Origin: Candidatus Zixiibacteriota bacterium
GTDB lineage: Bacteria > Zixibacteria > MSB-5A5 > GN15 > FEB-12
Direction of reading: 5' to 3'
DNA length: 64,000 nt
Assembly: GCA_040756055.1 (NCBI GenBank)
Contig: JBFLZR010000001.1
Coordinates: 127,849-191,848 of the forward strand
Shown: positions 9,639 to 31,635 of the stretch, in pieces
Layout of the letters: each line of letters starts with the position of its first letter
How positions within the stretch are numbered: the stretch's first letter is position 1
Made by a program: the position numbers and the translations under genes
Notes under the pieces: model-generated
Seen by the model: the letters and a program-made list of their open reading frames with translations, nothing else
Told to the model about the DNA's origin: nothing
The model's database searches: none

Positions 9639-9656
9639 GAACACATCCGAGGAGGG

Positions 9657-10718: not shown

Positions 10719-11226
10719 TATTATCCCGGCCCTTCCGGCACGTGTCGTGAGCGATTTCAATAGCTATCTCGACTATCGCCTCAACTCGACCAGCTATTTC
10801 CTCAGACAGCTCCGTTCCCATCGAAATCTCTTTTGGTTCTACACCGATGATTGTTATATCGGATGGTGCTGAGCCGAGTAGGAGGTTTGAAGCCAGTGCC
10901 TGAAGAAGGCTCATTTGGTGAAGAGAGATAGTGTTTCGGGGTTTTTCGCGGATATCATCAGGCGTCAGTTTGTAGATAGTACCCGGCATCCCGCCCCCTT
11001 TGATGGCATCGATTATTATTAGCTTCTCGACACCATCGAGCAGGTTAAAAGTATCGAGGGCCGCCGTTCCCGCGTCGATTAACTCAACGCCCCCGGGCAG
11101 CCCCTGATTATTTTGCATCGCCTGAACAACGTGAACCCCGATACCATCATCCTTCATAAGGATATTGCCCGCTCCCATGATGACAGTCCGTAGGGCGTTC
11201 TTGCTGTTCGAGCTCATTTCTATCAC
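10705..11226 (-). CDS. [NiFe] hydrogenase maturation protease
   Basis: A 173-residue HyaD/HybD/HycI-type endopeptidase that trims the C-terminal extension of the hydrogenase large subunit after nickel insertion. Family features: G-A-G-N-I-L-M-K-D-D-G-I-G-V-H at the N-terminus (the Asp pair includes a Ni-recognising acid), I-D-A-G, and S-L-H-Q-M-S near residue 100, whose His is the last metal-recognising residue. It starts with a GTG that overlaps the large-subunit stop by four bases (GTGA), indicating translational coupling; an internal ATG is at 11217. The substrate is encoded directly upstream. Confidence 0.88.
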   Translation of the reverse strand: MIEMSSNSKNALRTVIMGAGNILMKDDGIGVHVVQAMQNNQGLPGGVELIDAGTAALDTFNLLDGVEKLIIIDAIKGGGMPGTIYKLTPDDIREKPRNTISLHQMSLLQALASNLLLGSAPSDITIIGVEPKEISMGTELSEEIAGRVEAIVEIAIEIAHDTCRKGRDNTNEV

Positions 11227-12782: not shown

Positions 12783-12811
12783 AGTTTTCTCCTTTTAGGG
12801 ACCCCTTTAGT

Positions 12812-13813
12812 TCAGGTTGTTTCCACTTTGATTGTTCGTTGCGGGGCATATGGACCCGACCATTCGATGCCGCGTGCAGCTTCTCGTGGCAGTTTGGTGT
12901 ACAACCCATAGCCGCCAAAATCCGGGAAATCCGGTTCGGTACATCCGATGCACGGCGAGCCGCTACGGATACACCAGTTGACCTTGTTGTTCCACCCGCG
13001 GATGCAGACATCGCAATGCGTCTCGGGGCCTTTGCACCCGAGATCATACAGGCAGCCCTGGCCACCGAAATCCTCGGCCGGAATACCGTTTTCGAAATCA
13101 GCGCGTCTCTCGCATTGCTCGTGTACCACTTTGCCGAAGAACATTTTTGGGCGTTTGTGTTCATCGAGTTCGGGCAATCCATAGAGAATGACATGCGCCA
13201 CCGTTCCTATCACCCAATCGGGGTGAGATGGACAGCCGGGGATATTTATTAGAGTCGCCTCAGGCAGCAGCTCGGAAACCGGTTTGGCGTTGGTGACATT
13301 TGGACGTGCCGCCGGAATTCCGCCGAACGCCGCGCAGGTACCCACCGCCAAAACGGCTTTCGCAGCGTTGCCAAGCTGCAGTACCCACTGTTCGGCCGTG
13401 ATGGGTTTGTGGTCGTGCTCGCCCATCTGGCAGTAGGCGCTGCCATCGCCAGTCGGGATCGAACCCTCGACCACGAGAACGAATTGGCCTTTTTGTTCGT
13501 TGATGGCTCTATTCAAGACGTCAAGGGCAAAGTCACCCGCCGCGCCCATGACATTGGGGTGAAATTGCAGGCTGATAGTTTCGGTGATAACCTCGGCGAT
13601 ATCGGGATGTACGCTGTTCAAGGTTGACACCGAACATCCGGCACAAGATTGTCCCTGAAGCCAGATGACCGGCAGAGGGTCGGTTTTCATTTGCTCCGCG
13701 AGGGCGATCTTGATGGGCTCGGGAATGCCTCCGGCCCGCAAAAAACCGGGAAGCATGGCTACTGACGCCGTGCAACCCAGAAGTTCCAGAAATTCTCTTC
13801 GGCTAAGACTCAT
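12812..13813 (-). CDS. [NiFe] hydrogenase small subunit with Tat signal
   Basis: A 333-residue iron-sulfur subunit. The N-terminus S-R-R-E-F-L-E-L-L-G is a twin-arginine signal, so the folded heterodimer is expected in the periplasm. The proximal cluster starts at W-L-Q-G-Q-S-C-A-G-C, and further Cys/His residues near the C-terminus (C-I-G-C-T-E-P-D-F-P) match the medial and distal clusters. The protein ends soon after, without the C-terminal membrane helix of membrane-bound group 1 hydrogenases, and no cytochrome b gene adjoins; a soluble periplasmic enzyme that feeds a c-type cytochrome is the likeliest reading. GGGAG precedes the ATG. First gene of the small-large-protease operon. Confidence 0.93.
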   Translation of the reverse strand: MSLSRREFLELLGCTASVAMLPGFLRAGGIPEPIKIALAEQMKTDPLPVIWLQGQSCAGCSVSTLNSVHPDIAEVITETISLQFHPNVMGAAGDFALDVLNRAINEQKGQFVLVVEGSIPTGDGSAYCQMGEHDHKPITAEQWVLQLGNAAKAVLAVGTCAAFGGIPAARPNVTNAKPVSELLPEATLINIPGCPSHPDWVIGTVAHVILYGLPELDEHKRPKMFFGKVVHEQCERRADFENGIPAEDFGGQGCLYDLGCKGPETHCDVCIRGWNNKVNWCIRSGSPCIGCTEPDFPDFGGYGLYTKLPREAARGIEWSGPYAPQRTIKVETT

Positions 13814-16781: not shown

Positions 16782-18188
16782 TCAGTGCGACATCAGGTAT
16801 TCGTGCATGGATCGGGCGGCTTTGCGCCCGGCGCCCATCGCCAGAATAACCGTAGCCGCGCCGGTGACAACATCACCGGCCGCCCAGATTTTCTCGCGCG
16901 AAGTCTGCCCGGTTTCTTCATCGGCGACGATATTGCCCTTCTTGCCAATCTCCAGGCCGGGTGTGGTCTGGGCGATAAGCGGGTTGGGGCTGTTGCCAAT
17001 TGCGCAAACGATGGCGTCGACCTCGATTATCTCGATAGCGCCTTCGATAGGTACCGGCCGACGGCGCCCGGAGGCGTCCGGCTCACCGAGCTGCATCCTC
17101 TGGACTTCCATCTGCTTGACCCATCCGTTTTCATCGCCGATGTACTTCAGCGGAAGAGTCAGGAAGTCGAAAATGACTCCTTCCTCCTCGGCGTTCTCGA
17201 CTTCTTCCAGACGAGCCGGGAGTTCTTCTCTGGATCGGCGATAGACAATGCGGGACTCAGCTCCCAGTCTCAGGGCGCTGCGGGCGCAGTCCATAGCCAC
17301 GTTGCCGCCGCCAACCACCGCGACACGCTTATGGCTTTTGACGGGCGTGTGATACTCGGGGAAAAGAAATCCCTTCATCAGGTTCAGACGCGTCAGATAC
17401 TCGTTGGCGGAATAAACGCCGTTTAGGTTCTCGCCGGGAATTTCCATGAACCACGGAAGTCCCGCGCCGGACCCGACGAAGATAGCGTCGTACTCTTCCA
17501 GCAGCGAATCAATGGACTGCGTTTTGCCGACGACAAAATCGGTTCTTATTTTGACACCGAGTTTCTTGAGATAGTCAACCTCGCGTTCGACAATGCGCTT
17601 GGGCAGACGGAACTCGGGGATGCCATAAACCAGCACGCCGCCCATTTTGTGCAGGGCTTCGAAGATGGTTACCTCGTGGCCAAGTTGAATCAAATCGCCC
17701 GCGACCGTCAGTCCGGCCGGTCCGCCACCGACGACCGCCACTTTCTTACCGGTTTTGCCCGGCAGGTGCGGCATCTCCAGTTTGCCCTGGACGGCCTCCC
17801 AGTCGGCCAGGAAACGTTCGAGGCGACCGATGGCTATCTGCCCGCCTTTTTTGACCAGCACGCAGGTTTCTTCGCACTGTTCTTCCTGCGGACAGACTCG
17901 TCCGCAGATAGCGGGAAGGCAGTTTTTCTCTTTCAGTATTTTGATACCGCGTTTGAAATCTTTTTCGGATATAGCCTTGATAAATCCGGGGATATTTATT
18001 TCTACCGGACAGTTCTCCACGCATTTCGGCTTGGGGCACTGGATGCAGCGCGAGGCTTCCTCTACCGCCGTTTGAGCCGCATAACCAAGAGCGACCTCGC
18101 TGAAATTGTGCGAACGAATCTCCGGCTGCTGCTTGGGCATATCCCTTCTTACCAGGTCCAGTTGTTTTTTCTTTTTCGGTTCAGCCAT
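16782..18188 (-). CDS. nfnB: NfnB-type / GltD-like NADPH-binding flavoprotein subunit
   Basis: A 468-residue member of the glutamate synthase small subunit family. The N-terminal domain has the two-cluster Cys set (C-I-Q-C-P-K-P-K-C-V-E-N-C-P, then C-G-R-V-C-P-Q-E-E-Q-C-E-E-T-C), followed by the FAD site G-G-G-P-A-G-L near 155 and the NADPH site G-G-G-N-V-A-M-D near 293. Next to an NfnA-type subunit (12-base gap) and with no glutamate synthase large subunit, it most likely forms NADH-dependent ferredoxin:NADP+ oxidoreductase, which couples reduced ferredoxin and NADH to NADP+ reduction by flavin bifurcation. Sulfide dehydrogenase (SudA) is a close alternative. Last gene of the operon, followed by a terminator. 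Confidence 0.82.
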   Translation of the reverse strand: MAEPKKKKQLDLVRRDMPKQQPEIRSHNFSEVALGYAAQTAVEEASRCIQCPKPKCVENCPVEINIPGFIKAISEKDFKRGIKILKEKNCLPAICGRVCPQEEQCEETCVLVKKGGQIAIGRLERFLADWEAVQGKLEMPHLPGKTGKKVAVVGGGPAGLTVAGDLIQLGHEVTIFEALHKMGGVLVYGIPEFRLPKRIVEREVDYLKKLGVKIRTDFVVGKTQSIDSLLEEYDAIFVGSGAGLPWFMEIPGENLNGVYSANEYLTRLNLMKGFLFPEYHTPVKSHKRVAVVGGGNVAMDCARSALRLGAESRIVYRRSREELPARLEEVENAEEEGVIFDFLTLPLKYIGDENGWVKQMEVQRMQLGEPDASGRRRPVPIEGAIEIIEVDAIVCAIGNSPNPLIAQTTPGLEIGKKGNIVADEETGQTSREKIWAAGDVVTGAATVILAMGAGRKAARSMHEYLMSH

Positions 18189-18199
18189 AACAAATATCC

Positions 18200-19048
18200 C
18201 TACCGTTGTTGAGAATGCTCTTCACACTTACTTTTACTGGTACGGAGAGGAACGACTTCCTCGGGCATATAGGTCTTGCGCCTCTGGAGAAGCTCTTCCC
18301 AGTCCACTTCGTGACCGTTGAAATCCGGTCCGTGCACGCAGGCGAATCGGGTGACCGATCCCACTGTCACGCGACAGACGCCGCACATTCCCGTACCGTC
18401 GATCATAATCGGGTTCAAGCTGACCCAGGTGGGAATCTGGAGCGCCCGGGTGGCATCGGATCCGCGTTTCAGACAGTAAGTGCAACCGTTGATGATCACG
18501 CGGTCGACAGTTACGCCGAGGTCTTTGATTATTTCGGGTAAGCGATCGACGTGACCTTTGTAGCCCTTGGTTCCATCACGGGTGATGCGCACGAACTCAT
18601 CGGAATAGTCCTTGTACCGGTCTTCCCAGTAAAGAAGGTATGAACTGCGTGCCTCGACAACCGTGATAATCTTATTGCCCGCCTGTTTCAGCGCTCTGGC
18701 TACCGGGAAAAGGCTCCCGATGCCGTAGCACCCGCCGAGCAACAAGACGGTCCCATACTTCTCTATGTCCGTGGCATTGCCGAGCGGACCGACAACCGTG
18801 GGTATCTGTTGACCTTCGACCAGCCGTGACAACCGGTCGGTGGTTCTTCCCACGTTCAAAAATATCGTAGTGACCGTCCCCATCTGCTCATCCCAATCCG
18901 AAATGGAAAGGGGAATACGCTCGCCCTCTTCTTCGGCACGCAGGATGATAAACTGTCCCGGTTTGGCTTCGCGGGCCACAGCGGGAGCTTCCAGCGTCAA
19001 GAGGTGCATGTTCGGGACAATCATGCGACTTGTGACAACTTTAAACAT
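18200..19048 (-). CDS. nfnA: NfnA-type / PyrK-like FAD and [2Fe-2S] subunit
   Basis: A 282-residue ferredoxin reductase-fold protein of the PyrK/NfnA/SudB family. It has the FAD-binding barrel (G-Q-F-I-I-L-R, R-I-P-L-S-I), the NAD-binding G-G-C-Y-G-I-G-S motif and a C-terminal [2Fe-2S] Cys set (C-T-Y-C ... G-M-C-G-V-C ... C-V-H-G-P-D-F). The start at 19048 (MFKVV) is chosen because AGAGGA lies just upstream and the gene then begins two bases after the preceding stop; a longer frame to 19114 would overlap the NuoG-like gene. With the next gene it would form the cytosolic NfnAB complex. Confidence 0.83.
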   Translation of the reverse strand: MFKVVTSRMIVPNMHLLTLEAPAVAREAKPGQFIILRAEEEGERIPLSISDWDEQMGTVTTIFLNVGRTTDRLSRLVEGQQIPTVVGPLGNATDIEKYGTVLLLGGCYGIGSLFPVARALKQAGNKIITVVEARSSYLLYWEDRYKDYSDEFVRITRDGTKGYKGHVDRLPEIIKDLGVTVDRVIINGCTYCLKRGSDATRALQIPTWVSLNPIMIDGTGMCGVCRVTVGSVTRFACVHGPDFNGHEVDWEELLQRRKTYMPEEVVPLRTSKSKCEEHSQQR

Positions 19049-19050
19049 GG

Positions 19051-21543
19051 CTATTTCCTCTTTATTTTCACTGGATGTGGGTTGGGGTTCATGGCCTCCG
19101 CGTGACGCAGACACACATGAAGGGTACCATCGGCCTGCTCAGGCTTTACGCGAACCGGCCAGACTTTCTCGAATCCGGTCGAACTCACGATCACTTCGTC
19201 ACCGTCGGATAATTTCGCCTTCTTAGCGTCGGCCGGACTGATATCCACTCTTTCCTCGAGGAAAAGAGTTTTGGTACCATCGACCCACGCCGAGAGCGGG
19301 AATCCCCGGTGCGTGTGTTCGGTGACCGCCATACTGAGCATGAAAGGATAATTCGCGTCTTTTGCCTTGGCGCCGGCCTTTTTGGCCTTGACCAAGTTCA
19401 GCTCGGCCTTCATTTTGAGAGGCTGAGCCTTGCGTGGCGGCTTGTTGAAATTGCCGAATCCTTCCACAACACCGGCAATCTCCTTGTGGATATCGCCGGC
19501 ATTCTTGTACGCCAGACCATCGGCCTTCATCTTCTGCGCGATCCTGCCGAGGATCATCCAGTCCGGCATAGCTTCCGCCGGAGGGTTAACCGCCTGCCTG
19601 ACTCTCTGGAGCCGTCCTTCACCGTTGATGAATGAGCCATCGGACTCGGTAAAAGCGGCCGCAGGAAGAACCAGGTCGGCGTCGGTCTCGACTTTCGGCG
19701 GATAGATGTTCTGGACTATCACGAAGTCGGCAACACTTTTCGCGTTCATCGGAAGACTCTCGCCGACGAGATACAGTACTTTCAGTTTCTTGCCGTCGCC
19801 GAGGCTGCCCGCATTCCATTTGGTGTCGAACTTCGCAACCGCAGCACCCCAGGCATTTTTTAACTCGTCTGCCTTTTTGGTGCTGGTTGAAGCCTCGCCG
19901 CCGGGAAGCAACTCCGGATAGGCTCCCATCATTAGAGAACCGAACAGGTTGTTCTGAGCCGGTAGCGGCATCACTCCCGCGCCAAGATTATCGGCAAGCT
20001 GTTTTATCGCAGCCAATATCTCGGAGCTGCTGTCATACTGCAGGAACTCCGAGCCGACCAGAATCACCGGAGACTTGGAATTCTTCAGAGTGCCAGCAAC
20101 GTCGGCGGCATCGCCACCGGATTTCGATGCCGGCTTTTTCTGAGTATTCTTCACCAGCGATTTGAGCAGACTCAGTTCATCACCCGGCAGCGACTGTACC
20201 CAGTGCTCGGAGATGAGCGTGAGGTTGTGTTCGCGGGGGTGGATGCTCATGACTTTGGCGCCCCGTCGATAGGCTCTTCTCAACTCCACGCCAACGACCG
20301 ACCGCCCGAACCGGGTATCGAGGCCGACGCACAACACGGCATCGGCCTTGCGGACATTTTCGAGCGGCACCGCCTGCCTCATAAGATCGAGGTAGGCGTT
20401 GAAGCCGGAGCCATAGAAGGTTCGGGCCGATGTATCAATATTGTGTGATTTCATAACCGTCCGCGTGAACTTTTGCGCCGCGTATAGGTCTTCGTTGGTG
20501 CAGTTGGGCGATATGAGCATGGCGAATTCGTCGGGTTTGCAGGCGGATAGTTTTTCCGCCGCCGTATCGATGGCCGCATCCCATGTGACCTCCGCCGCGA
20601 CTCCGCCGAACACACCGTATGGGCGTTTCAGCCGTTTCGGTCCGCTGACCAATTCGGTCACACAGAAACGTCCTTTGACGCACAGCTGCCCGTTGTTAAC
20701 CAGGTCATCGGCGGCAGGCAGCGCGCCAATGACACGGTCGCCTTTTACCAGCAGCCGCATCTGGCAGCCTACGCCGCAGAAGGTACAGGTCGTGAATTCT
20801 TCACGGTCGGGCTTGCCTTCATAGGCACGCGCCTTTTCAGTGAGAGATCCGGTGGGACAGACCGACACACAGGCGCCGCAGAACTCGCAGCCCGCATCAA
20901 GGTGCGTGCGCTGGTAGGCCGGGCCTATCACGGTCTCGCGTCCACGGTTGTTGAAGGCCAGTACATTGGCCACGCGCACTTCCTGGCAGATTCGCACACA
21001 GCGACCGCACAGGATGCAAAGGTTGTAATTTCTCTCGTAGAAGGGGTCTTCCTTTTCGACCCTGAGATTGCGATAGTAAATGGGATAACGGATTTCCTTG
21101 ACGTTCATGTGTTCGACCACGTCCTGAAGCTCGCACTGCCCATCGTTGGAGCAATACCGGCATCCCGTGGTTACGCCGGCCTTGCGGATGGTTCCCATGT
21201 ACTCACGGCACTGATCCTTTTCGTCACATATCAAGCAACTTGATGTGTGCTCGCTCAGAAACAGCTGCAGAATCTCCATTCTTACCGATTGCACCTGAGC
21301 GGTGTTGGTCCTGATAACCATACCATCGGACACCGGCGTGGTGCAGGCGGTCGGAAGGTTTCGCATCCCATCCACCTCGACAATACACATCCGGCAGCCG
21401 CCGTAGGGTGTGAGTTCCTTGTGAGCGCACAGGGTGGGGATGTAGATATCGTTCTGCTGGGCGGCCTCAAGAATCGAAATCCCACCGGGTACAGAGTAAG
21501 TGTTGTTGTCGATAGTCACTGTAATTGTTGAATTCTTGCTCAT
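19051..21543 (-). CDS. NuoG/FdhA-like iron-sulfur protein with silent molybdopterin domain
   Basis: An 830-residue protein built as [2Fe-2S] ferredoxin (Cys39, 50, 53, 67), His-Cys [4Fe-4S] (His99, Cys103, 106, 112), an extra Cys trio (128, 131, 137), two ferredoxin clusters (Cys176-186 and 219-229), then a molybdopterin oxidoreductase domain with its own cluster (Cys253, 256, 260, 288). Where formate dehydrogenases carry Sec or Cys (C-A-R-x-C/U-H), this protein has T-S-A-R-T-F-Y-G-S-G near 371-380. That argues against formate oxidation and for an electron-wire or NuoG-like role. It overlaps the NuoF-like gene by four bases. GGAGGG precedes its ATG. Substrate of the complex is unknown. Confidence 0.8.
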   Translation of the reverse strand: MSKNSTITVTIDNNTYSVPGGISILEAAQQNDIYIPTLCAHKELTPYGGCRMCIVEVDGMRNLPTACTTPVSDGMVIRTNTAQVQSVRMEILQLFLSEHTSSCLICDEKDQCREYMGTIRKAGVTTGCRYCSNDGQCELQDVVEHMNVKEIRYPIYYRNLRVEKEDPFYERNYNLCILCGRCVRICQEVRVANVLAFNNRGRETVIGPAYQRTHLDAGCEFCGACVSVCPTGSLTEKARAYEGKPDREEFTTCTFCGVGCQMRLLVKGDRVIGALPAADDLVNNGQLCVKGRFCVTELVSGPKRLKRPYGVFGGVAAEVTWDAAIDTAAEKLSACKPDEFAMLISPNCTNEDLYAAQKFTRTVMKSHNIDTSARTFYGSGFNAYLDLMRQAVPLENVRKADAVLCVGLDTRFGRSVVGVELRRAYRRGAKVMSIHPREHNLTLISEHWVQSLPGDELSLLKSLVKNTQKKPASKSGGDAADVAGTLKNSKSPVILVGSEFLQYDSSSEILAAIKQLADNLGAGVMPLPAQNNLFGSLMMGAYPELLPGGEASTSTKKADELKNAWGAAVAKFDTKWNAGSLGDGKKLKVLYLVGESLPMNAKSVADFVIVQNIYPPKVETDADLVLPAAAFTESDGSFINGEGRLQRVRQAVNPPAEAMPDWMILGRIAQKMKADGLAYKNAGDIHKEIAGVVEGFGNFNKPPRKAQPLKMKAELNLVKAKKAGAKAKDANYPFMLSMAVTEHTHRGFPLSAWVDGTKTLFLEERVDISPADAKKAKLSDGDEVIVSSTGFEKVWPVRVKPEQADGTLHVCLRHAEAMNPNPHPVKIKRK

Positions 21544-23429
21544 GACACCCTCCGCTTCGGCTTAATCTCGATAGCGTTACCGGCCAGAGGATCAAAGCGA
21601 CAGACCTCGTAACAGGCTTTGCACTTGATACATCTGAGTTGATCGATGGTGTGAAGCTCCGAACGCGCCCCGCTGATGGCATCGGTCGGGCAGACATCCT
21701 TGCAGCGCTGACAACCATTGCATGTTTCCGGGTTGACGATGTATTCGACCAGCTCCCGGCACACCGCCGATTTGCAGTATTTGTCCTGAACGTGTTCAAG
21801 GTATTCGTTGCGGAAGTGACGCAGGGTGGTCAGCACCGGGTTGGGAGCTGTCTGGCCCAATCCGCAGAGCGAGGCTCGCGCTGCCGTTTCGGCGAGGGTC
21901 TGAAGTTTGGTGAGATCTTCCGGGCCACTTTGTCCTTTGGTGATTTCATCGAGGATGGTAACCATGTGCCAGGTACCGACGCGGCACGGTGAACATTTGC
22001 CGCAAGACTCTTTCTGCGTGAAATGGAGAAAATACAGGGCCAGGTCAACCACGCAAGTGTCTTCGTCCAGCACGATCATGCCCCCGGATCCCATGATGGA
22101 GCCGGCCGACTGCATGGACTCATACTCCACCGGAATATCGAGAAATTCATCGGAGAGACATCCTCCCGATGGTCCTCCTGTCTGTACTCCCTTGAATTTT
22201 TTCCAGGAACCGCCGCCGATATCGTAGATAATCTGACGGAGTTTGGTTCCCAGCGGGACTTCGATGAGTCCGCCGCGGCGGACCGAACCGACGAGCGAGA
22301 AGGTCTTGGTGCCGTGGTTGCCTTTGACTCCGAATTGTTTGTACCAGTCGGCGCCGTTTCGAAGAATGTTCGGAAGCGTTCCGAGGGTTTCGACATTGTT
22401 GATGATAGTCGGTTTTCCGAAGAGTCCTTCGACGGCCGGGAACGGTGGTCGTGAGCGCGGCATGCCACGGCGTCCTTCGATAGAGCAGATCTGCGCGGTT
22501 TCTTCGCCGCACACGAACGCTCCGGCGCTTTCTTTGATGGTCAGTCCGAAATCGAAGTCGCTGCCAAGAATATTCTTGCCCAGCAGACCGTATTCGCGCA
22601 TCTGCTCGGCGGCTTTTTTAAGCCTCGCTACCGCGAGATAATAGTCCGAGTTGATATAAACATATCCATGCGAGGCCCCGATAGCATACGAACCTATCAT
22701 GAGTCCTTCGATCACGCAGTGCGGGTCGCTTTCAATAAGGGCGCGGTTCATGAAGGCTCCGGGGTCACCCTCGGAGACGTTGCAGATCATGTACTTTTGA
22801 TCAGCTTTCACACCGCGGCAGATCTCCCACTTGCGCCAGGTCGGAAAACCGGCGCCGCCTCGACCGCGAAGACCGGCCTCTTTGACTATCTCGATTACGC
22901 TCTCGGGCTTTTGCCTGAGCGCGCTTGCCAGTCCCTGGTAACCATCGTTGGCCAGATAGTGGTCGATATTTTCCGGGTCAATAAGACCGCAGTTTCGCAG
23001 CACCAGCCTGGTCTGCGGCTTGAGCATCGGCGTCTCGAAAAATTTCGGTATACCCTCTGTCAGTGGATGGCCATTGTCGCCGAAGTGGCCGACGGCCAGA
23101 GGAGCCAGAGGGTTTCCTTTTATCAGAAGACTCTCTATGATTTTCTCGGCGGCGTCCGGCGTGACGTTGGAATAGCAGATTCGCGGTTCTCCGGGGAGCC
23201 TGATATCCATCAGGGGCTCCATATAACAGGGGCCAATACAGCCCACCTGGACGATCTCCGCCTTAAGCTTTTTCCTTTTCAAAGTCTGCTTGACCGCGTC
23301 GAGCACCTTCAACGCTCCCGCAGACTGACCGCACGTGGCGGTGCCCAAATAGATGACCGGAACGGCGCTCTGTTGGAGCGCCTTCCATTTCTTTTGAGCT
23401 TCTTTCTGTCTGGTCGCGAAGCTAATCAT
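21540..23429 (-). CDS. NuoF/HydB-like NADH and FMN-binding subunit
   Basis: A 629-residue flavoprotein of the NuoF/HndC/HydB family. Order of parts: thioredoxin-like [2Fe-2S] domain (Cys near 32, 73 and 77, in G-C-I-G-P-C), FMN/NADH domain with G-R-G-G-A-G-F-P and the N-x-x-E-G-D-P-G-A-F motif, SLBB domain, NADH-type cluster (E-S-C-G-K-C-S-P-C-R-x-G), and a C-terminal pair of ferredoxin clusters (C-N-G-C-Q-R-C-K-D-V-C-P; C-I-K-C-K-A-C-Y-E-V-C). The N- and C-terminal additions are absent from complex I NuoF and typical of bifurcating hydrogenases and formate dehydrogenases, so it is probably the NADH/ferredoxin bifurcation site. Starts eight bases inside the NuoE-like gene end. Confidence 0.9.
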   Translation of the reverse strand: MISFATRQKEAQKKWKALQQSAVPVIYLGTATCGQSAGALKVLDAVKQTLKRKKLKAEIVQVGCIGPCYMEPLMDIRLPGEPRICYSNVTPDAAEKIIESLLIKGNPLAPLAVGHFGDNGHPLTEGIPKFFETPMLKPQTRLVLRNCGLIDPENIDHYLANDGYQGLASALRQKPESVIEIVKEAGLRGRGGAGFPTWRKWEICRGVKADQKYMICNVSEGDPGAFMNRALIESDPHCVIEGLMIGSYAIGASHGYVYINSDYYLAVARLKKAAEQMREYGLLGKNILGSDFDFGLTIKESAGAFVCGEETAQICSIEGRRGMPRSRPPFPAVEGLFGKPTIINNVETLGTLPNILRNGADWYKQFGVKGNHGTKTFSLVGSVRRGGLIEVPLGTKLRQIIYDIGGGSWKKFKGVQTGGPSGGCLSDEFLDIPVEYESMQSAGSIMGSGGMIVLDEDTCVVDLALYFLHFTQKESCGKCSPCRVGTWHMVTILDEITKGQSGPEDLTKLQTLAETAARASLCGLGQTAPNPVLTTLRHFRNEYLEHVQDKYCKSAVCRELVEYIVNPETCNGCQRCKDVCPTDAISGARSELHTIDQLRCIKCKACYEVCRFDPLAGNAIEIKPKRRVS

Positions 23430-23874
23430 CTTGTTCCAGTATCTCCTTTAAGCGCGTAACCGTCATGCGGCTGTGAACATCCTCGTTGACCTTCACCACC
23501 GGAGCAAGAGTGCAGCACCCCAGGCAACCTGCCCGCTGAAAATCGAATTTCTTGTCGTCAGTTGTCTGGCCGATAGCTATTCCCAGTTTCCAGCCGACCG
23601 CCTCCGAAAGAAACAATCCGCCGCGGACGTGGCAGGCGGTTCCCATACACACCTTTATGGATTTTTTCCCGGGTTCGGTAAATCTGAATTTGGGATAGAA
23701 CGAGGCCACACCATGGATCTGATTTTCCGACATCTTCATAAACTGTGAGACACGTTTGATGGCATCCTCAGATATGTAGCCGTCTTTATCCTGAATCCGG
23801 ACCAAAAGTGGAATCAGGTCCGATTCAACCCCCTTGAATTGAGAGAATATGTCGTCGTAGTCCTTCTCTTTCAC
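23422..23874 (-). CDS. NuoE/HydC-like [2Fe-2S] subunit
   Basis: A 150-residue thioredoxin-fold [2Fe-2S] protein that relays electrons to the NuoF-like partner. Ligands are visible in C-M-G-T-A-C-H-V-R-G and C-L-G-C-C. A helical N-terminal domain precedes it as in NuoE. The GTG at 23874 is preferred because GGGAG lies eight bases upstream; the longer frame from 23889 would put that site inside the gene. The stop overlaps the NuoF-like start, consistent with a 1:1 complex. Confidence 0.9.
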   Translation of the reverse strand: MKEKDYDDIFSQFKGVESDLIPLLVRIQDKDGYISEDAIKRVSQFMKMSENQIHGVASFYPKFRFTEPGKKSIKVCMGTACHVRGGLFLSEAVGWKLGIAIGQTTDDKKFDFQRAGCLGCCTLAPVVKVNEDVHSRMTVTRLKEILEQDD

Positions 23875-23916
23875 AGAGCATACTCCCACTGATTTAGTTA
23901 GATGTTTAACAAACTA

Positions 23917-25188
23917 TTATTCTTCGTCACCGCTTTTTTTCGAAAGAAAGATACAATCGGTAAGTTTAACGTCACCCCTGACAAAATCCTCGGCAAAAGC
24001 CATACAGGTCGGCGAGCCGCAGCAACCGCAGTCTACCTGTTTCAGTTTACCGTAAACCCTTTCGCGCTCCTTCATCCGTTTGATGGAAGTGGCGAGGTCG
24101 GTATCGAAATAGGCTGTGGGACGCGGCAGGATACGATGTTCGAGGAAATAGTAGCCCGAGTTGAGTTTTTCTTCGATATCCTTATCGTCGAGCTTGATGG
24201 CGGATTCATACTTCTCGCGTTGTCTTATGCTGTTAGTTCGAGCCACGTAGGGGTTCTCGACATTATAAGGTCCGCCGATACATCCGAGCATATGCGCCAG
24301 CGCTTCCACGAAAGCGATATTGCGCAGGCGGGAGTTTTCGATATCGTCGAGTATCTGCATCACGTGATCCAGACCCGATACCGCCAGCCAGTTCTCCATG
24401 CGCACCGACTGGGTAATGCTTCCGGTGGTAACCCATCCGGCGTTGAAATTAAAATCTTCGGGCACCTGGCTTTCATCGAACTCCTCGCGTATCGCCACCA
24501 CCTGAGGAAGAAGTACCGAATAGGCATCGCGGATAGAAACCGCCCCGTCGTACCATGACTTGGCTTTTTCGGCGGGTTGTTTTATGGAAACGATCTTTGC
24601 CGGGCAGGTCGCGAGATAAAAAATCCCGATATCCTCAGGTTTGAGGCCGAGCTTTTGAGGCAGTGTTTTTCTGATCTCCCGGGCGGTCACCTCGCGGGGT
24701 ACGTCGAGAGGGACTATCAGTTCGGCCAGATCGGGATATTTCACCTGAATAAGACGAACGACCGACGGGCAGTACGATGATATTAGCGGCCGTCGTCCCC
24801 GGTAGTTTTTCATGTACTTGACCAGCGCTCTGGCCATGGCCGCGGAAGAGGTGCTGACATCTACGACTTCGTCAAATCCCAGGCGTTTGAGAGCCAGATG
24901 GACAATGTAAGGGTGGGTGGTCCATTCGAACTGCGAATAAAGCACGGGGGATGGTACAACCACTTTGTACTTGAAATTGGAGATTTCATCGACCGGATCG
25001 ACAATCGGGACGATGGCTTCCGAGGGGCAAACCGAGATACATTCGCCGCAGTCAACGCACAGTTCTTTTGAGACAACCGCTTTGCCATCGCGAACCCTGA
25101 TGGCCTGCGTGGGACAGTGACGCATACAAGTCATGTGTCCGCGGCATTTGGCCACATCGACTTTATGAGCGTGAAAATATTGCGTCAT
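23917..25188 (-). CDS. [FeFe]-hydrogenase-like protein with degraded H-cluster motifs
   Basis: A 423-residue protein: two [4Fe-4S] ferredoxin motifs (residues 15-54), an [FeFe]-hydrogenase large-subunit-like domain (about 75-350), and a C-terminal four-Cys Fe-S domain of the PF04060 type (D-C-G-C-C-G-S-P-T-C near 386-395, last Cys 412). The three H-cluster motifs are recognisable but changed: L1 reads S-S-Y-C-P-S (Cys140; the proton-relay Cys is Tyr), L2 is A-T-C-P-A-K (Cys195), and L3 is E-A-L-A-H-M-L-G-C-I-G-G-P with His299 in place of one cluster Cys and Cys303 kept. Three of four H-cluster cysteines remain. It may be a sensor or regulator, not a turnover hydrogenase. GAGGG precedes the ATG. 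Confidence 0.8.
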   Translation of the reverse strand: MTQYFHAHKVDVAKCRGHMTCMRHCPTQAIRVRDGKAVVSKELCVDCGECISVCPSEAIVPIVDPVDEISNFKYKVVVPSPVLYSQFEWTTHPYIVHLALKRLGFDEVVDVSTSSAAMARALVKYMKNYRGRRPLISSYCPSVVRLIQVKYPDLAELIVPLDVPREVTAREIRKTLPQKLGLKPEDIGIFYLATCPAKIVSIKQPAEKAKSWYDGAVSIRDAYSVLLPQVVAIREEFDESQVPEDFNFNAGWVTTGSITQSVRMENWLAVSGLDHVMQILDDIENSRLRNIAFVEALAHMLGCIGGPYNVENPYVARTNSIRQREKYESAIKLDDKDIEEKLNSGYYFLEHRILPRPTAYFDTDLATSIKRMKERERVYGKLKQVDCGCCGSPTCMAFAEDFVRGDVKLTDCIFLSKKSGDEE

Positions 25189-26491: not shown

Positions 26492-27037
26492 TCAAAGTAG
26501 AGGTTTTCTTTCTTCGGGCGGTTCTTCCTGTGAGAGCATGCCGATATCGTGGATAAACTCGCCGCGGCAGCGCGACAGATCACTTATCAGGCTGAAAGAC
26601 ACGATTTTCACTTTCGAGCGTGAGGTATCGCGGCGCTGGTTGAAATAATCGGTGAGGATATCCAGTCTCTCCTGGGGAATCGGATTGGTTTTGGCCTGCG
26701 GCAAGAAGCCAAAGGCCACCAAAATGAACGTTTTTTCCGCCTGAAACTTCTTGCGCAGAATTTCGACCTCACAGTCATCCATGCAAGAAGTGCAGTACAG
26801 AAATCCCATCAGGTCGGCGAATTTTTCGATGCGCCCGCAGTCCCGGCACTTGAGGTCGAATCTGAAAGTCTGGGCGTTTTCAACGATACTCCACTGATGA
26901 TCATTCTCACGGTACTCGTCCCAGGTATCATCCGCGGAGAAATAGGTCCGGAGGTCGTTACAGTGCGAGCATTTTTCAAAGACCACGAAGCCAAATTGTA
27001 TATTTGCCATTTCCCACCGGTGCCGGCATTCAGACAT
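26492..27037 (-). CDS. Cys-rich (zinc-ribbon-like) protein of unknown function
   Basis: A 181-residue cytosolic-type protein with four Cys pairs: C-x3-[R/H] at the start, C-S-H-C, C-R-D-C and C-T-S-C-M-D-D-C. These could form two zinc ribbons or, less likely, Fe-S sites. The second half has no motif I know. The start M-S-E-C-R-H at 27037 is chosen because GGGAG lies ten bases before it; a longer frame to 27082 has no such site. It is the first gene of the operon that continues to 16782, which ties it to the redox complex, perhaps as a regulator. Confidence 0.6.
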   Translation of the reverse strand: MSECRHRWEMANIQFGFVVFEKCSHCNDLRTYFSADDTWDEYRENDHQWSIVENAQTFRFDLKCRDCGRIEKFADLMGFLYCTSCMDDCEVEILRKKFQAEKTFILVAFGFLPQAKTNPIPQERLDILTDYFNQRRDTSRSKVKIVSFSLISDLSRCRGEFIHDIGMLSQEEPPEERKPLL

Positions 27038-27597
27038 CTTAATAGACTCCCTATTCCAATTAGTTTTGAAATCCGATTTCATCCGGCCGGGGCCAGAACG
27101 CTGTAGCGGATGGATGACCTCAGATTAGAATTCCTTTATCCTTAGCCACTTATGGACGGTAGACCAGAGGCTCGATGCCTGGACCATTGCGCGAACAGAC
27201 CGGTTTGGCGGATCAACTGTCGCATTAGTAAAGTAGCAGGCCCTGAGACTGATTGAAGATTTAGGGGGCCGCAGGCAACTCCACCGCTGAAGTCCGGTTA
27301 ACCAATTTCAGGAAAATATAAACGAGCGGCCCTGACCAGACAAGGAAAATCTTGGGAGCGGGTAACTGTTCAACCATATGGCATTCTGGATTGTGGCCGT
27401 TTGGGGAAATATTACTGTATTGAGGCTTTGTCCCCACCCAGATTCCATTTGAAATGGTGCCGGATATGTATTATACTCGCTGGTAACGGCTCACCCAATA
27501 TGAGCCACCCGAAACCGACGAATAGTGAGACGGTGACCGTTCGCCGCTAGGGTGCTTGCAGTCGCCAGAGATACCCTTTCCATATCAGGAGGAAGAC
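27038..27597. other. Divergent intergenic region
   Basis: About 560 bases between the redox operon (minus) and the ferritin-like gene (plus). The plus-strand promoter is listed separately; its leader contains the short hairpins GGCTCA...TGAGCC and ACGGT-G-ACCGT. For the minus strand I find no convincing promoter. No tRNA or coding frame recognised between 27120 and 27440. Confidence 0.4.
27449..27477 (+). promoter_or_regulatory. Sigma-70-type promoter for the rubrerythrin-like gene
   Basis: TTGAAA at 27449-27454 and TATACT at 27472-27477, each five of six to consensus, are separated by exactly 17 bases. Transcription would start near 27484, leaving a leader of about 115 bases with two small hairpins before the gene at 27598. 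Confidence 0.65.
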
Positions 27598-28050
27598 ATG
27601 GATTTTAAGTCCGCCGATCAAATTTTAGATTTCGCTATCCAGAAAGAGGAGGAAGCCGCCGAGCTGTACTCGGACCTCGCCAAGACCCTGAATCGACCGG
27701 ATATGAAGCAGGTTTTTGAGAGTTTCGCCAGGGAGGAGAAGCAGCACAAGGCCAAGCTTATCGAGGTCAAACAGGGCAAGAGGATGGTTTCTTCGGAGAA
27801 GAAGATATTCGACCTGAAAATCGGCGATAGTCTGGTGGATGTAAAGCCTTCTCCCAATCTCGATTATCAACATGCTTTGATTTTTGCCATGAAGGCCGAA
27901 AAGGCTGCTTATAAGTTATATGCCGGCCTGGCGGAAACGACCGACGACCCGTTCTTGAAAGACCTGTTTTTGGGTCTGGCCCAGGAAGAGGCCAAGCACA
28001 AGCTTCGTTTCGAGGTCGAGTACGACGACCAGATTTTGACGGAAAACTGA
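27598..28050 (+). CDS. Rubrerythrin-like ferritin-family protein
   Basis: A 150-residue four-helix diiron carboxylate protein. Two repeated helix pairs carry the expected ligands: E-E-A-A-E-L-Y with E-E-K-Q-H, and E-K-A-A-Y-K-L-Y with E-E-A-K-H. There is no rubredoxin domain, so it is a rubrerythrin core (erythrin or YciF-like), likely reducing peroxide or storing iron in the cytoplasm. The ATG at 27598 follows AGGAGG by six bases; an upstream frame start at 27556 lacks such a site. It is monocistronic, with a strong promoter and a terminator. Confidence 0.87.
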   Translation: MDFKSADQILDFAIQKEEEAAELYSDLAKTLNRPDMKQVFESFAREEKQHKAKLIEVKQGKRMVSSEKKIFDLKIGDSLVDVKPSPNLDYQHALIFAMKAEKAAYKLYAGLAETTDDPFLKDLFLGLAQEEAKHKLRFEVEYDDQILTEN

Positions 28051-28302: not shown

Positions 28303-29457
28303 TCATATTTCACGCCATGCCACAACCATCATGCCGCTGATGCTGGGCCATTCGATATCCAAAAGGTGTCGATCGAAGTGGAACCCCGCGCTGTTGTGAA
28401 CCAGGATGTCTTCGGCCACGATGGAGCCGTAGAAATCACCGGAATTGCGAAGGTCACCGAAACCATCGGGAGAGTAGAAGGTGGCGAAAATGTCGCCGCT
28501 GTTTTTCAGCACGATATCGCCCTGGCTATAGAACTGGAGGTCCATCGGACTGCCGTCCAGATTGACCTGCGAGGAGTTTTTCAACTCAATGTCACCGGTG
28601 ACATATATGGTTACCACCGCCCCGGGCGCAAGCTCCAGACTGGCAGTGTTCTTTAGCTCCACACTCGAAAAGAAATAGGTGCCGGTTTGAAAAATGACCG
28701 TACCGCTGGTCAGAAATGAGTGCGTAGATGGATTGTACGTGTAGCTTCCGGAGATACCGGTGGCGTTGTCATTTACGACCGCAACCTCGGCCCACACTTC
28801 GTCAGGGATCAGCGGCAATTCCTGCTCCGGAGCGGTGGAGGTCGTATCGCCCGCAACTGTGGCGCCAGGGTTTATTGAAAGACCGCCTTCCGTAGCCGTA
28901 GCGACATCTCCTCCCAGCATGGCACCGTTGGCGGCATCGATTGTGCCGTTGGAGCCGATATCTCCGTAGTCAAACAGTACCGTACCCGCGTAGGTGCCGG
29001 AATCCGAATTGTAGGAGTCGGTCAGGGCGCTGTTTCGCATATCGACCGAACTGTCGCCGAAGAGAGCATACTGGAACGGTCTGAAAATGATCGGTACCAT
29101 GTATACTTCGATGCCCGACGAGGCGCCGTTGCGCTCCGCCATCGAGGTCACCACCACGGTATCGGCCAGGGAGGCGTTGGTGGTGCTGTCATCGAGAGTC
29201 ACCGTATACTGGCCGTCATTGAAGGCGACACAGGTAAACCCGCTGCGCCAACTCAGATCGTTGCTTAGTTCTGCGCAGGCGCGGTTGATCCCGGCCTCGG
29301 CAATATAGAATGCCTGGTCGTCGTGCAGTTGATTGTACGACATATCAACATCCGTCGTAGACCTGTCCAAAGCCGTAATCGCCACTACTGTCAGCAGGGC
29401 CATTAAAGCCAGCGCGATCAGAAGCGCGCTTCCCCTCTGGTTAGCCAGCGCCCTCAT
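28303..29457 (-). CDS. PilX-like type IV pilus assembly protein, copy 2
   Basis: A 384-residue exported protein with a PilX-like N-terminus: G-S-A-L-L-I-A-L-A-L-M-A-L-L as the membrane helix and a Glu at the pilin-type position (Y-I-A-E-A-G-I-N-R-A). The long C-terminal part has repetitive short beta-strand sequence with many N-S and G-D turns (D-S-Y-N-S-D-S-G), suggestive of a beta-helix or adhesin-like head. It is clearly a paralogue of the next upstream gene along most of its length, and both end in V-A-W-R-E-I. AGGAG precedes the ATG. Last gene of the operon. Confidence 0.78.
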   Translation of the reverse strand: MRALANQRGSALLIALALMALLTVVAITALDRSTTDVDMSYNQLHDDQAFYIAEAGINRACAELSNDLSWRSGFTCVAFNDGQYTVTLDDSTTNASLADTVVVTSMAERNGASSGIEVYMVPIIFRPFQYALFGDSSVDMRNSALTDSYNSDSGTYAGTVLFDYGDIGSNGTIDAANGAMLGGDVATATEGGLSINPGATVAGDTTSTAPEQELPLIPDEVWAEVAVVNDNATGISGSYTYNPSTHSFLTSGTVIFQTGTYFFSSVELKNTASLELAPGAVVTIYVTGDIELKNSSQVNLDGSPMDLQFYSQGDIVLKNSGDIFATFYSPDGFGDLRNSGDFYGSIVAEDILVHNSAGFHFDRHLLDIEWPSISGMMVVAWREI

Positions 29458-29477
29458 AACTCTCTCCTATCTCATTT

Positions 29478-30641
29478 CTAAATTTCCCGCCAGGCCACCA
29501 CGAGCATTTTACCCGTTTCCCATTTCTCGAGCTCACTGAGTATTCTGTCGTAGTGGAAACAAACATTATCTTCAAAAGCTATATAGTCGGCCACGACCGA
29601 TCCATAGAAGTTGGTATAGTTTCTTAATATGAAATCGGCGTCCGGTCCATAGAAACACGCCGAAAGCAACGTGCTCTGACCCAATTCAAGGAGCGAACCG
29701 GTGGAGTAGATTTGCACCTGCGATGGTGTTCCGAATTCGTTGAACTCTGACGATTGACCGAGAACGAGGTCACCCGTCATGTAAATTGTCACCTCCGCAC
29801 CCGGCTCCAGATTTACAATCGCGTTCTGGCCGAGGGTAATATCGGAAAAATAGTATACTCCGCTTGACAGCGTCAGGACCTCATTCACACCTACATCGAG
29901 CGAGTAGTCAGACGGGTCGTAGGTATAGGTTCCGCTCATTCCCGTGTAGACATCGCTGTTGAGCTGTGCCCATACGTATTCGGAATCCGGGACGATGTCC
30001 ATGACTTTGGGGTCCACGCCGGTAACAGTGTCGCCACGAACGGTTGACTTGTTATCCAGAGTGATGCCGTCTTCGATCGCGCTGACGGCGTCACCGCCGA
30101 TCATGGCGATATTTTCCAGCGACAAAGTTCCGTTGGATCCCACCGAAGCGCCCAGGTAATCCACGGTCGCTGCGTAGGAACCGGAATCCGAGTTGTACGA
30201 GTCGGTGCACGCGGCGTTTCTCATAGACACGCTGGTATCACCGAAGAGAGCAAATTCGAACGGACGGTACCGCTCCGGAACGAGATAGGCCTCGATTTCC
30301 GCTTCGGCGCCATCGAAATTTCCTGTTGCCCTCAAGATCACCGTATCCACAAGGGCCGGTACGGTACTGCTGTCAATGACTCTGACTGAGTAGACGCCGC
30401 CGCCCAGTTCTTCATTTATAAAACCCGCGTCCCACGTGCGGTCGTCGTTGATTTCGGCCAAGGCCCTCTCAATACCGGCTTCGGCGGTATAGAAGGCTTT
30501 CTCGTCATGAAGCTGATTGTACGACATGTCCATATCGGTGGTGGATCTGTTGAGAGCCATGATGGCGATGACGCTTAGCATAGCCATTAAAGCCAGCGTA
30601 ATCATAAGCGCTCCGCCTCTGTTGGAAAATATCCTATTCAT
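29478..30641 (-). CDS. PilX-like type IV pilus assembly protein, copy 1
   Basis: A 387-residue paralogue of the following gene with the same N-terminal helix (G-A-L-M-I-T-L-A-L-M-A-M-L), the Y-T-A-E-A-G-I-E-R-A segment, the D-S-Y-N-S-D-S-G block and the final V-A-W-R-E-I. The start M-N-R-I-F-S-N at 30641 was chosen because GAGGT lies upstream and the helix follows directly; an extended frame to 30743 would run into the pilW-like gene. It is probably a pilus-tip or minor pseudopilin component with a large surface-exposed domain. Confidence 0.78.
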   Translation of the reverse strand: MNRIFSNRGGALMITLALMAMLSVIAIMALNRSTTDMDMSYNQLHDEKAFYTAEAGIERALAEINDDRTWDAGFINEELGGGVYSVRVIDSSTVPALVDTVILRATGNFDGAEAEIEAYLVPERYRPFEFALFGDTSVSMRNAACTDSYNSDSGSYAATVDYLGASVGSNGTLSLENIAMIGGDAVSAIEDGITLDNKSTVRGDTVTGVDPKVMDIVPDSEYVWAQLNSDVYTGMSGTYTYDPSDYSLDVGVNEVLTLSSGVYYFSDITLGQNAIVNLEPGAEVTIYMTGDLVLGQSSEFNEFGTPSQVQIYSTGSLLELGQSTLLSACFYGPDADFILRNYTNFYGSVVADYIAFEDNVCFHYDRILSELEKWETGKMLVVAWREI

Positions 30642-30660
30642 GGGTAAGGTACCTCGCTTC

Positions 30661-31248
30661 CTATAAGTTGACATTTCGTAAACTGACCTGTTCAGCCAGA
30701 GTCCAGGTCCTGAATCCATTATTCTGTTCAAAACTATCGTCACTCTTGGAGACCTGCGCGGTCACCGAAATTTCTATCGTTCGGCTGTCAATCTGCGCGA
30801 AGTCGATATCCAGAATAAAGTCGGCGCAGATTGCGGGTGTACCGCTGTTTTCACGTTTCATCAATTTGTAGAGCGGTACGTCCTCCGCCAAGCCATGCAC
30901 CTTGCTGTATTCGTAGTCGCTGAATTCATCCAGGTAATAGAGCACCGTATCGACCGGCTGGGTGTTGCTATAATAGATAGCCAGGGTATCGCCCTTTATT
31001 TCATAAGCGTCATGAGTTGACAGTTTAAAGCCCGCCAGGCGAAGTGTCTTTTTGATTTCGTTGACACTTGATCGACACAGATGCTGAACCTCGGACACCT
31101 CATACTGCACCTCAGTCTGGTTGTGCATTGAGGTGTAGAATCTGAAACTGGCGGTAGCCAGAATTCCCGTGATCAGAGCCGCGATGAGCACCTCCAGAAT
31201 CGTAAAACCCCGGCGGCACTTCAGCCTATTTGCTTTTCCTATAGCCAT
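30661..31248 (-). CDS. PilW-like prepilin with N-terminal methylation motif
   Basis: A 195-residue prepilin. The prepilin peptidase site is R-R-G-F-T-I-L-E-V-L-I-A-A (cleavage after Gly14), followed by a hydrophobic helix. The C-terminal part fits PilW-type minor pilins. Its ribosome site AAAGGA overlaps the stop codon of the pilV-like gene, six bases away, so translation is probably coupled. Confidence 0.85.
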   Translation of the reverse strand: MAIGKANRLKCRRGFTILEVLIAALITGILATASFRFYTSMHNQTEVQYEVSEVQHLCRSSVNEIKKTLRLAGFKLSTHDAYEIKGDTLAIYYSNTQPVDTVLYYLDEFSDYEYSKVHGLAEDVPLYKLMKRENSGTPAICADFILDIDFAQIDSRTIEISVTAQVSKSDDSFEQNNGFRTWTLAEQVSLRNVNL

Positions 31249-31254
31249 GATTCA

Positions 31255-31635
31255 TTATCCTTTCATCAACAGCGTCGAATATGTCGTGGAGCGAGCCACC
31301 CCGGTTTTATCGGTCCACGAGATGGTTATATCGACCTGGCAGACACCACCCGGTATTGAGGCGTCAGTGGTACTGTCATTAATCGCGGTATAGCGGGTGT
31401 AGCCACCCTCAAGATCGCTTTCAGTTTCGGTGTAGGGTACACTGGGCAGTGTCTCGAGGGATTCGTAAAATTCCAGTTTCTCGGCGGCCAGACTTGAAAC
31501 GACCAGTACATCGCGGGACATATTGTTACCCTCGATAGACATCACAACCATCGGCGCCATTCCCAGAATTCCCAGACTGAGAATTATCATGGCCACCAAA
31601 ACCTCCAGCAGGCTAAGTCCCTTATCGTTATTCAT
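31255..31635 (-). CDS. PilV-like prepilin
   Basis: A 126-residue minor prepilin. The peptidase site K-G-L-S-L-L-E-V-L-V-A-M has cleavage after Gly6 and the conserved Glu at mature position 5. It is the first gene of a pilV-pilW-pilX-pilX set that would prime pilus or pseudopilus assembly in the inner membrane. GAGGAATC precedes the ATG. The core pilus genes (pilB, pilC, pilM-Q) are not in the window. Confidence 0.85.
   Translation of the reverse strand: MNNDKGLSLLEVLVAMIILSLGILGMAPMVVMSIEGNNMSRDVLVVSSLAAEKLEFYESLETLPSVPYTETESDLEGGYTRYTAINDSTTDASIPGGVCQVDITISWTDKTGVARSTTYSTLLMKG

Follow-up and report, generated by a model that had tools for sequence, protein, structure and literature searches.

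What is the function of a protein with the fold of an [FeFe] hydrogenase in a bacterium whose genome lacks the means to build the hydrogen-reacting centre of these enzymes? The question is raised by a 423-aa protein, here called HydL, encoded in a stretch of 64,000 nucleotides (the window) from a Candidatus Zixiibacteriota bacterium. A first-pass annotation, made from the DNA letters and their translations, had proposed that this protein could bind an altered cluster and sense H2, CO, or redox state for the DRTGG/RsbW-like proteins encoded beside it.

The predicted fold of HydL is indeed that of an [FeFe] hydrogenase. Its H-domain matches PF02906 with 80.4 bits over residues 77–307 (Pfam), and its AlphaFold2 model (pLDDT 92.1, pTM 0.90), computed from 51 window and locus sequences, has a Desulfovibrio [FeFe] hydrogenase as best Foldseek match in the PDB (E 8.7e-19) and aligns with CbA5H (8zqd) with a Z of 30.8 and an rmsd of 2.8 over 342 residues (VIA-align). 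Two 4Fe-4S ferredoxin motifs (residues 10–59, Pfam) precede this domain, and the tail, correctly assigned to the PF04060 type from the beginning (42.1 bits, residues 384–414, Pfam), carries exactly the motif Cx2Cx4Cx16C. The first ferredoxin motif reads CxxHxxCxxxC, one cysteine being missing and His18 standing instead. With this one substitution, HydL has the domain layout of group D, namely 2x[4Fe-4S], H-domain, and Cx2Cx4Cx16C, with no PAS domain. The positions of these elements and of the neighbouring genes are compiled in Table 1.

Table 1. HydL, its key codons, and the genes of its block, with positions in the window.
Feature	Position	Strand	Remarks
First block gene: 196-aa cysteine-rich protein, no known family	26492..27082	(-)	Same place in 25 of the best 80 of at least 498 loci
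Stand-alone DRTGG-domain protein, 111 aa	26112..26447	(-)	
DRTGG-HATPase fusion, 266 aa	25217..26017	(-)	ATP-site boxes conserved; nearest named family SpoIIAB, below cut-off
HydL, group-D-type [FeFe]-hydrogenase-fold protein, 423 aa	23917..25188	(-)	Two ferredoxin motifs, H-domain, Cx2Cx4Cx16C tail
His18 codon	25135..25137	(-)	Middle Cys of first ferredoxin motif replaced
Tyr139 (relay position) and Cys140 (ligand) codons	24769..24774	(-)	
Cys195 codon (L2 ligand)	24604..24606	(-)	
His299 codon	24292..24294	(-)	Aligned with CpI Cys499 and the engineered His of PDB 6gl6
Cys303 codon	24280..24282	(-)	Aligned with CpI Cys503
NuoE-like (BfuC) [2Fe-2S] subunit	23422..23889	(-)	2Fe-2S_thioredx
NuoF-like (BfuB) FMN subunit, C-terminal 2x[4Fe-4S]	21540..23429	(-)	Complex1_51K, NADH_4Fe-4S, Fer4
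NuoG-like subunit, 830 aa, molybdopterin-type domain	19051..21543	(-)	
NfnA-like (PRK06222) FAD/NAD-binding subunit	18200..19114	(-)	328.9 bits, cut-off 220
NfnB/GltA-like subunit	16782..18188	(-)	TIGR01316, 592.6 bits, cut-off 471.75

HydL and CpI align in register (phmmer), and the key residues had been read correctly in the first-pass annotation: Cys140 in L1 (ISSYCPS), Cys195 in L2 (ATCPAK), and Cys303 in L3 (FVEALAHMLGCIGG) occupy three [4Fe-4S]H ligand positions, His299, also in L3, falls on CpI Cys499, so that the fourth H-cluster cysteine is absent, and Tyr139 falls on the relay position, CpI Cys299. In place of the four cysteines of an H-cluster, L1–L3 of HydL thus offer three cysteines and a histidine. 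We take CpI Cys499 and Cys503 to be H-cluster ligands, Cys503 bridging to [2Fe] in real hydrogenases, and Cys299 to be the relay. HydL Lys198 aligns with CpI Lys358, presumably the residue that holds a [2Fe] cyanide. According to the tree labels, it is retained in most members of the HydL family, indicating that decay of the pocket is incomplete, a point that counts against the reading that we favour below.

A histidine at the L3 position of His299 has also been introduced by chemists. PDB 6gl6, the apo form of Chlamydomonas HydA1 “variant C377H”, matches the HydL model (Z 23.3) and has FVEIMAHPAGC where other HydA1 entries have FVEIMACPAGC, so that the first Cys of L3 is replaced by His in a protein of this fold. 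This engineered protein folds and was crystallised in its apo form, a point in favour of the H-cluster-free reading proposed below. The difference is that the His of 6gl6 was put into an active algal enzyme, whereas that of HydL arose naturally and recurs in a lineage predicted to lack [2Fe]. The excerpts of a review (PMC11376134) indicate that Cys-to-His ligand mutants of [4Fe-4S]H alter activity, bias, and overpotential.

HydE, HydF, and HydG encoded in the same genome are the mark of a functional [FeFe] hydrogenase, and looking for them had been one of the checks suggested for HydL. Its outcome was negative: the source genome (3.3 Mb, 97.7% complete) has no match to HydG or HydE, and its best match to HydF reaches 76.6 bits against a cut-off of 325.6, with a model that gave matches in all 14 control genomes yet exceeded its cut-off in one. 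HydL is the single PF02906 match of this genome. Among 132 genomes of the phylum, 28 encode full-length HydL orthologues (42–100% identity), a count that excludes the incomplete matches of G104, 71 residues long at the end of a contig, and of G023, with 54 residues, as well as weak ferredoxin-only matches. None of these 28 genomes encodes HydG, and a single PF02906 protein is present in every one of them. The only genome of the 132 with HydG above cut-off, G112, lacks a HydL orthologue and has two PF02906 proteins, which score 299.5 and 291.2 bits; the other 28 PF02906-positive genomes carry the weak type alone (68–108 bits). G112 demonstrates that the search was able to find HydG in the phylum, and its gene content implies that HydG accompanies ordinary hydrogenases, not HydL. 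A few kb past the NfnB gene, genes for the small and large subunits of a [NiFe] hydrogenase and a maturation protease can be recognised by eye (window 10705–13813, minus strand), a possible route for handling H2 in this bacterium that needs no [FeFe] enzyme.

Could HydL still be a real sensor of H2 or CO, its H-cluster being ligated by His and assembled by HydEFG proteins that are diverged or of foreign origin? Three of the four H-cluster cysteines and Lys198 remain, and algal HydA1 with an engineered His at the equivalent L3 position reportedly still works. TamHydS, a group D protein from Thermoanaerobacter mathranii, is an active hydrogenase despite its altered pocket, as described in the excerpts of PMC8163306. 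Nevertheless, the lack of HydE and HydG in a genome 97.7% complete, the occurrence of HydG in the phylum solely alongside ordinary hydrogenases, and the bulky or charged residues found at position 139 make this explanation very improbable. Missing maturases together with retained ligand residues fit a plain [4Fe-4S] cluster without the [2Fe] part. From the initial proposal, the altered site and the sensing of redox state therefore survive, whereas sensing of H2 or CO by a modified H-cluster is unlikely.

Wider relatives came from a contig scan, of which the best 80 of at least 498 related stretches were kept; these 80 include Zixiibacteriota, Calditrichota, Acidobacteria, Latescibacterota, Ignavibacteria, Aminicenantes, Eisenbacteria, Deltaproteobacteria, Lachnospiraceae, and others. 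HydG was above cut-off in 5/50 and 5/14 further genomes (two sets). Sorted by HydL type, HydG is found in 4/77 genomes without Cys18 versus 6/12 with Cys18 (Fisher p 0.0003, a value that ignores kinship). The 77 are the 28 orthologue genomes of the phylum plus 49 further ones; the genomes of L046, L049, and L061, with HydL identical to that of genomes already counted, were excluded, and L093, on the same contig as L083, stayed outside the maturase search. All four genomes that have HydG and a HydL without Cys18 carry another PF02906 protein, of 319–349 bits in three of them, and in two of these three HydG is on that contig too. The six Cys18 genomes without HydG above cut-off are clostridial MAGs. 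Genomes beyond the phylum set are mostly MAGs, listed with no completeness values, and one of them, G139 (L064, His299), has a hydrogenase of 334.6 bits yet no HydG. Gaps thus exist in the MAGs, single absences of HydG can be such gaps, and HydG absence alone is weak evidence in these genomes. One Desulfuromonas MAG encodes a canonical-looking group-D-type protein (L157, G141:C206; Cys18, Ser139) together with the Arg18-type L067 and HydG.

The ligand residues are retained: Cys140, Cys195, and Cys303 are invariant in 51/51 aligned proteins, and 81/81 sequences (query plus the best 80 of at least 498) have Cys or His at position 299, with His in 13. By contrast, the residue at relay position 139 varies among the phylum orthologues (Y, F, H, Q, E, L, N, or C), and position 18 is Cys in 12/81 and His, Arg, Lys, or Gly in 69/81 (query plus the best 80 of at least 498, loci L044–L123), which suggests that the first ferredoxin cluster may have become a [3Fe-4S] centre or a [4Fe-4S] one with His or another non-Cys ligand. 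According to the first-pass annotation, missing maturases and non-conserved L1–L3 residues would have pointed to a scaffold with no special cluster; the maturases are missing, but the ligands of L1–L3 are not scrambled. A decaying scaffold with neither an intact cluster nor a special function would accommodate the replacement of one L3 ligand and one ferredoxin cysteine, as well as the state of the gene in G023. In that genome, a 54-residue match to the HydL start, 81% identical, lies in a 124-aa frame on a 3.4-Mb contig (L039, G023:C1:558684–558845) and is possibly the remnant of a lost HydL gene. Decay is nonetheless an improbable explanation, since the frame is uninterrupted in all 28 genomes with a full-length match, identity within the genus is 81–87%, 33 columns are invariant across the 51 aligned proteins, and gene order is kept.

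The distribution of His299 is instructive. It occurs in 13/28 phylum orthologues, that of the window included, and Cys in the remaining 15/28. The test of its conservation across orthologues, suggested at the outset, therefore shows recurrence but not presence throughout the family: a sequencing error or lone mutation is ruled out, and so is a family-wide trait. In a careful tree of 39 rows, His299 is confined to one sub-branch of a 31-row Zixibacteria-type clade; this sub-branch is weakly supported (83/91) and has His in 15/17 rows, with Cys299 in the other 14 Zixibacteria-type rows and in every row outside that clade. Within the clade, Tyr or Phe139 accompanies His299 in 14/15 rows versus 0/16 rows with Cys299, although the Fisher p of 6e-8 ignores kinship and the pattern amounts to one independent contrast on supported branches and three on all. 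In the sister rows outside the clade, Tyr or Phe139 occurs with Cys299 in 8/8, so the pairing rule fails there. The covariation of the two positions is suggestive only, and with so few independent contrasts it cannot be called coevolution.

A quick tree, computed with trait columns removed and long branches flagged, separates group A, group C-type, and HydL proteins, the names A and C being given from motif and neighbourhood rather than from reference sequences. The HydL clade has 83 rows (support 99) and includes clostridial group-D-type proteins, apart from the A and C rows; TamHydS and named B/C references stand outside this tree. L156, which contains L067, was left out of the tree, and L070, with a stop in its stretch, out of alignment A2. 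Inside the HydL clade, the order is clostridial group D type, Acidobacteria (Cys18, Phe139), one Desulfuromonas (Cys18), and then the rows with Arg or His18. The clostridial relatives look like canonical group D proteins, with Ala at the relay position and all cysteines, and group A HydABC genes lie beside five of them. Many Aminicenantes relatives also keep Ala139 and all four cysteines, which counts against the reading favoured here.

In the window, HydL is part of a compact nine-gene block on the minus strand, with the order 196-aa cysteine-rich protein, DRTGG, DRTGG-HATPase, HydL, and NuoE-, NuoF-, NuoG-, NfnA-, and NfnB-like genes. This block, the cysteine lost from the first ferredoxin motif, and the exact form of the C-terminal motif had escaped the first-pass annotation. 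The cysteine-rich protein has no Pfam family at E <= 0.001, only weak matches, and its fold model (pLDDT 81.7) has no PDB match at E <= 0.001. The DRTGG-HATPase matches HATPase_c_2 with 37.5 bits, above its cut-off, and the SpoIIAB anti-sigma factor model TIGR01925 with 51.8 bits, below the cut-off of 135. The residues of its N- and G-boxes, as we take the ATP-site boxes of HATPases to be named, are kept in 77 aligned proteins and the query. The neighbouring complex contains the domain sets of both BfuB and BfuC, and electron bifurcation is predicted from these genes. A rubrerythrin-domain protein is encoded divergently upstream of the block (window 27556–28050, plus strand). Farther out, visual inspection picked up a glycine-radical-enzyme-like and, after it, a proline-racemase-like protein (7275–10718, plus strand), as well as a series of proteins with type IV pilin-like N-termini (28303–31635, minus strand).

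Across the family, the signalling-type genes are the constant element. The HATPase gene is directly upstream of HydL in 76/77 loci with enough sequence, bearing out the link to the DRTGG/RsbW-like genes put forward initially, and a DRTGG domain is the upstream-side partner in 72/74 (both among the best 80 of at least 498, by tblastn, with loose family borders). The redox complexes vary, being electron-bifurcating complexes of Nfn, NiFe/Hdr, or FeFe type: among 68 loci flanked by 5 kb or more, 51 have NuoF-like, 27 NfnB-like, and 26 HdrA-like genes, 24 have NiFe-hydrogenase subunits, and five a group A HydA. In an Aminicenantes locus (L076, 5877–19253), HdrC-, HdrB-, and HdrA-like, DRTGG, HATPase, and HydL genes are followed by DRTGG, PHP, HATPase, NuoE, NuoF, BfuA-like, and NiFe subunit genes, an operon that, judging by its gene content, seems to unite Hdr, NiFe, and Bfu components in one system. 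That the signalling-type neighbour stays while the redox complex is exchanged speaks for HydL as a regulator and against it as an enzyme subunit.

Alternatively, HydL might belong to the NuoEFG-Nfn complex encoded downstream, as a subunit without catalytic activity that serves for docking or carries electrons between this complex and ferredoxin. In the window, the genes for HydL, NuoE, and NuoF directly follow one another and almost overlap, four Fe-S sites are predicted in HydL, and the frequency of NuoF-like genes among the best 80 of at least 498 relatives goes in the same direction. The neighbours themselves resemble the Nfn-Bfu transhydrogenases described in the excerpts of PMC9304861, with NuoE (BfuC), NuoF (BfuB) with extra 4Fe-4S domains, and Nfn-type flavin subunits; BfuA includes the Nfn domain in the enzymes of Sporomusa and Thermococcus, whereas the window has separate NfnA- and NfnB-like proteins and a NuoG-like one. 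However, those excerpts describe the BfuABC enzymes without a HydL-like subunit, 17 of the 68 loci have no NuoF, and no redox complex accompanies HydL as constantly as the HATPase does. We regard a subunit role as unlikely, albeit a credible contender.

Comparison with characterised proteins points to where HydL may come from. Group D (M2e) hydrogenases, as presented in the excerpts of PMC8163306, which also give the relay role of C299, have a HydL-like layout without the relay Cys, are encoded with a HATPase gene nearby and a bifurcating hydrogenase downstream, and are assumed to be sensory. TamHydS shares with HydL the two N-terminal 4Fe-4S motifs, the H-domain, the C-terminal Cx2Cx4Cx16C without PAS domain, the lost relay cysteine, and the adjoining HATPase gene. 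Unlike HydL, it has a complete H-cluster once given [2Fe], and its gene is upstream of a group A hydrogenase; HydL has lost one H-cluster and one ferredoxin cysteine to His, in a genome with neither maturases nor another [FeFe] hydrogenase. From the excerpts of PMC13104023 we know that the C-terminal cluster of TamHydS is not reduced by H2, which its authors take as an argument against the redox state of that cluster being the signal, that the C20A change, which alters one N-terminal cluster, blocks holoenzyme formation, and that interaction partners were left for future work. [FeFe]-hydrogenase genes without maturases, or group C1 genes without H-cluster motifs, were remarked on earlier in R. 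rubrum and Hydrogenedentota (PMC4967309, PMC11406978); unlike HydL, the excerpts of these papers describe them neither as group D nor with a His ligand or a HATPase/DRTGG module. The open-licence papers that we searched on this topic include none that joins DRTGG with a hydrogenase, and those retrieved on Zixibacteria FeFe and Aminicenantes HydDB include none about HydL.

A further parallel is the eukaryotic Fe-S assembly factor Nar1/CIAO3, which in the excerpts of PMC12621388 is an H-cluster-less hydrogenase-like protein, made without maturases or [2Fe]H, that keeps its [4Fe-4S] sites and for which a [2Fe-2S] cluster has been proposed in the cavity. Yeast Nar1 and HydL have in common the [FeFe]-hydrogenase fold, the absence of maturases and, as predicted for HydL from the missing genes, of [2Fe]H, and the retained [4Fe-4S] site residues. 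HydL might accordingly be a bacterial counterpart of Nar1, with another cluster, for example [2Fe-2S], in its vacant cavity and a function in Fe-S trafficking or oxygen response. Yet HydL is bacterial, has a PF04060 tail, and ends in ...SGDEE without the C-terminal Trp that Nar1/CIAO3 uses for the targeting complex, and its gene partners are redox enzymes and HATPase/DRTGG proteins. Such a function therefore appears improbable.

In a genome without the means to build a hydrogen-reacting centre, HydL is most likely a leftover hydrogen sensor that reads electron supply. Specifically, we propose, with a probability of roughly 0.55, that it is an H-cluster-free descendant of the putatively sensory group D (M2e) [FeFe] hydrogenases that signals electron load via its DRTGG/HATPase partners. 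Its ferredoxin domain, the site once used by the H-cluster, now with three Cys and His299, and the C-terminal Cx2Cx4Cx16C domain would all retain [4Fe-4S] clusters, and no [2Fe] subcluster would be made or inserted. Electrons would come from ferredoxin or from the adjoining NuoEFG/Nfn-type bifurcating complex, entering via the ferredoxin domain, and, with no H2 site, the chain of clusters would be a dead end. His299, as a putative ligand, would be expected to shift the potential of the cluster in the former H-site upwards and to make it depend on pH. The redox state of HydL would then set a conformation read by the neighbouring DRTGG-HATPase, which in turn may control the electron-transfer operon.

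More tentatively, and with the odds somewhat against so general a statement, a large bacterial lineage may have made group D H2-sensor hydrogenases into an H-cluster-free electrometer. Its former active-site [4Fe-4S], His-tuned in one branch, would read electron load and drive a conserved DRTGG-HATPase switch that has been re-attached to bifurcating complexes of FeFe, NiFe/Hdr, and Nfn type, and another kind of cluster may occupy the emptied [2Fe] cavity, in line with the proposal made for Nar1. If so, annotations as “sensory [FeFe] hydrogenase” in Zixibacteria, Aminicenantes, and other candidate phyla would, for a recognisable set of proteins, mean neither metabolism nor sensing of H2. HydL would be a prokaryotic parallel to Nar1 and a natural version of the laboratory Cys-to-His mutant of the H-cluster, and for group D hydrogenases, whose signalling partner is still missing, the DRTGG-HATPase would become a strong candidate.
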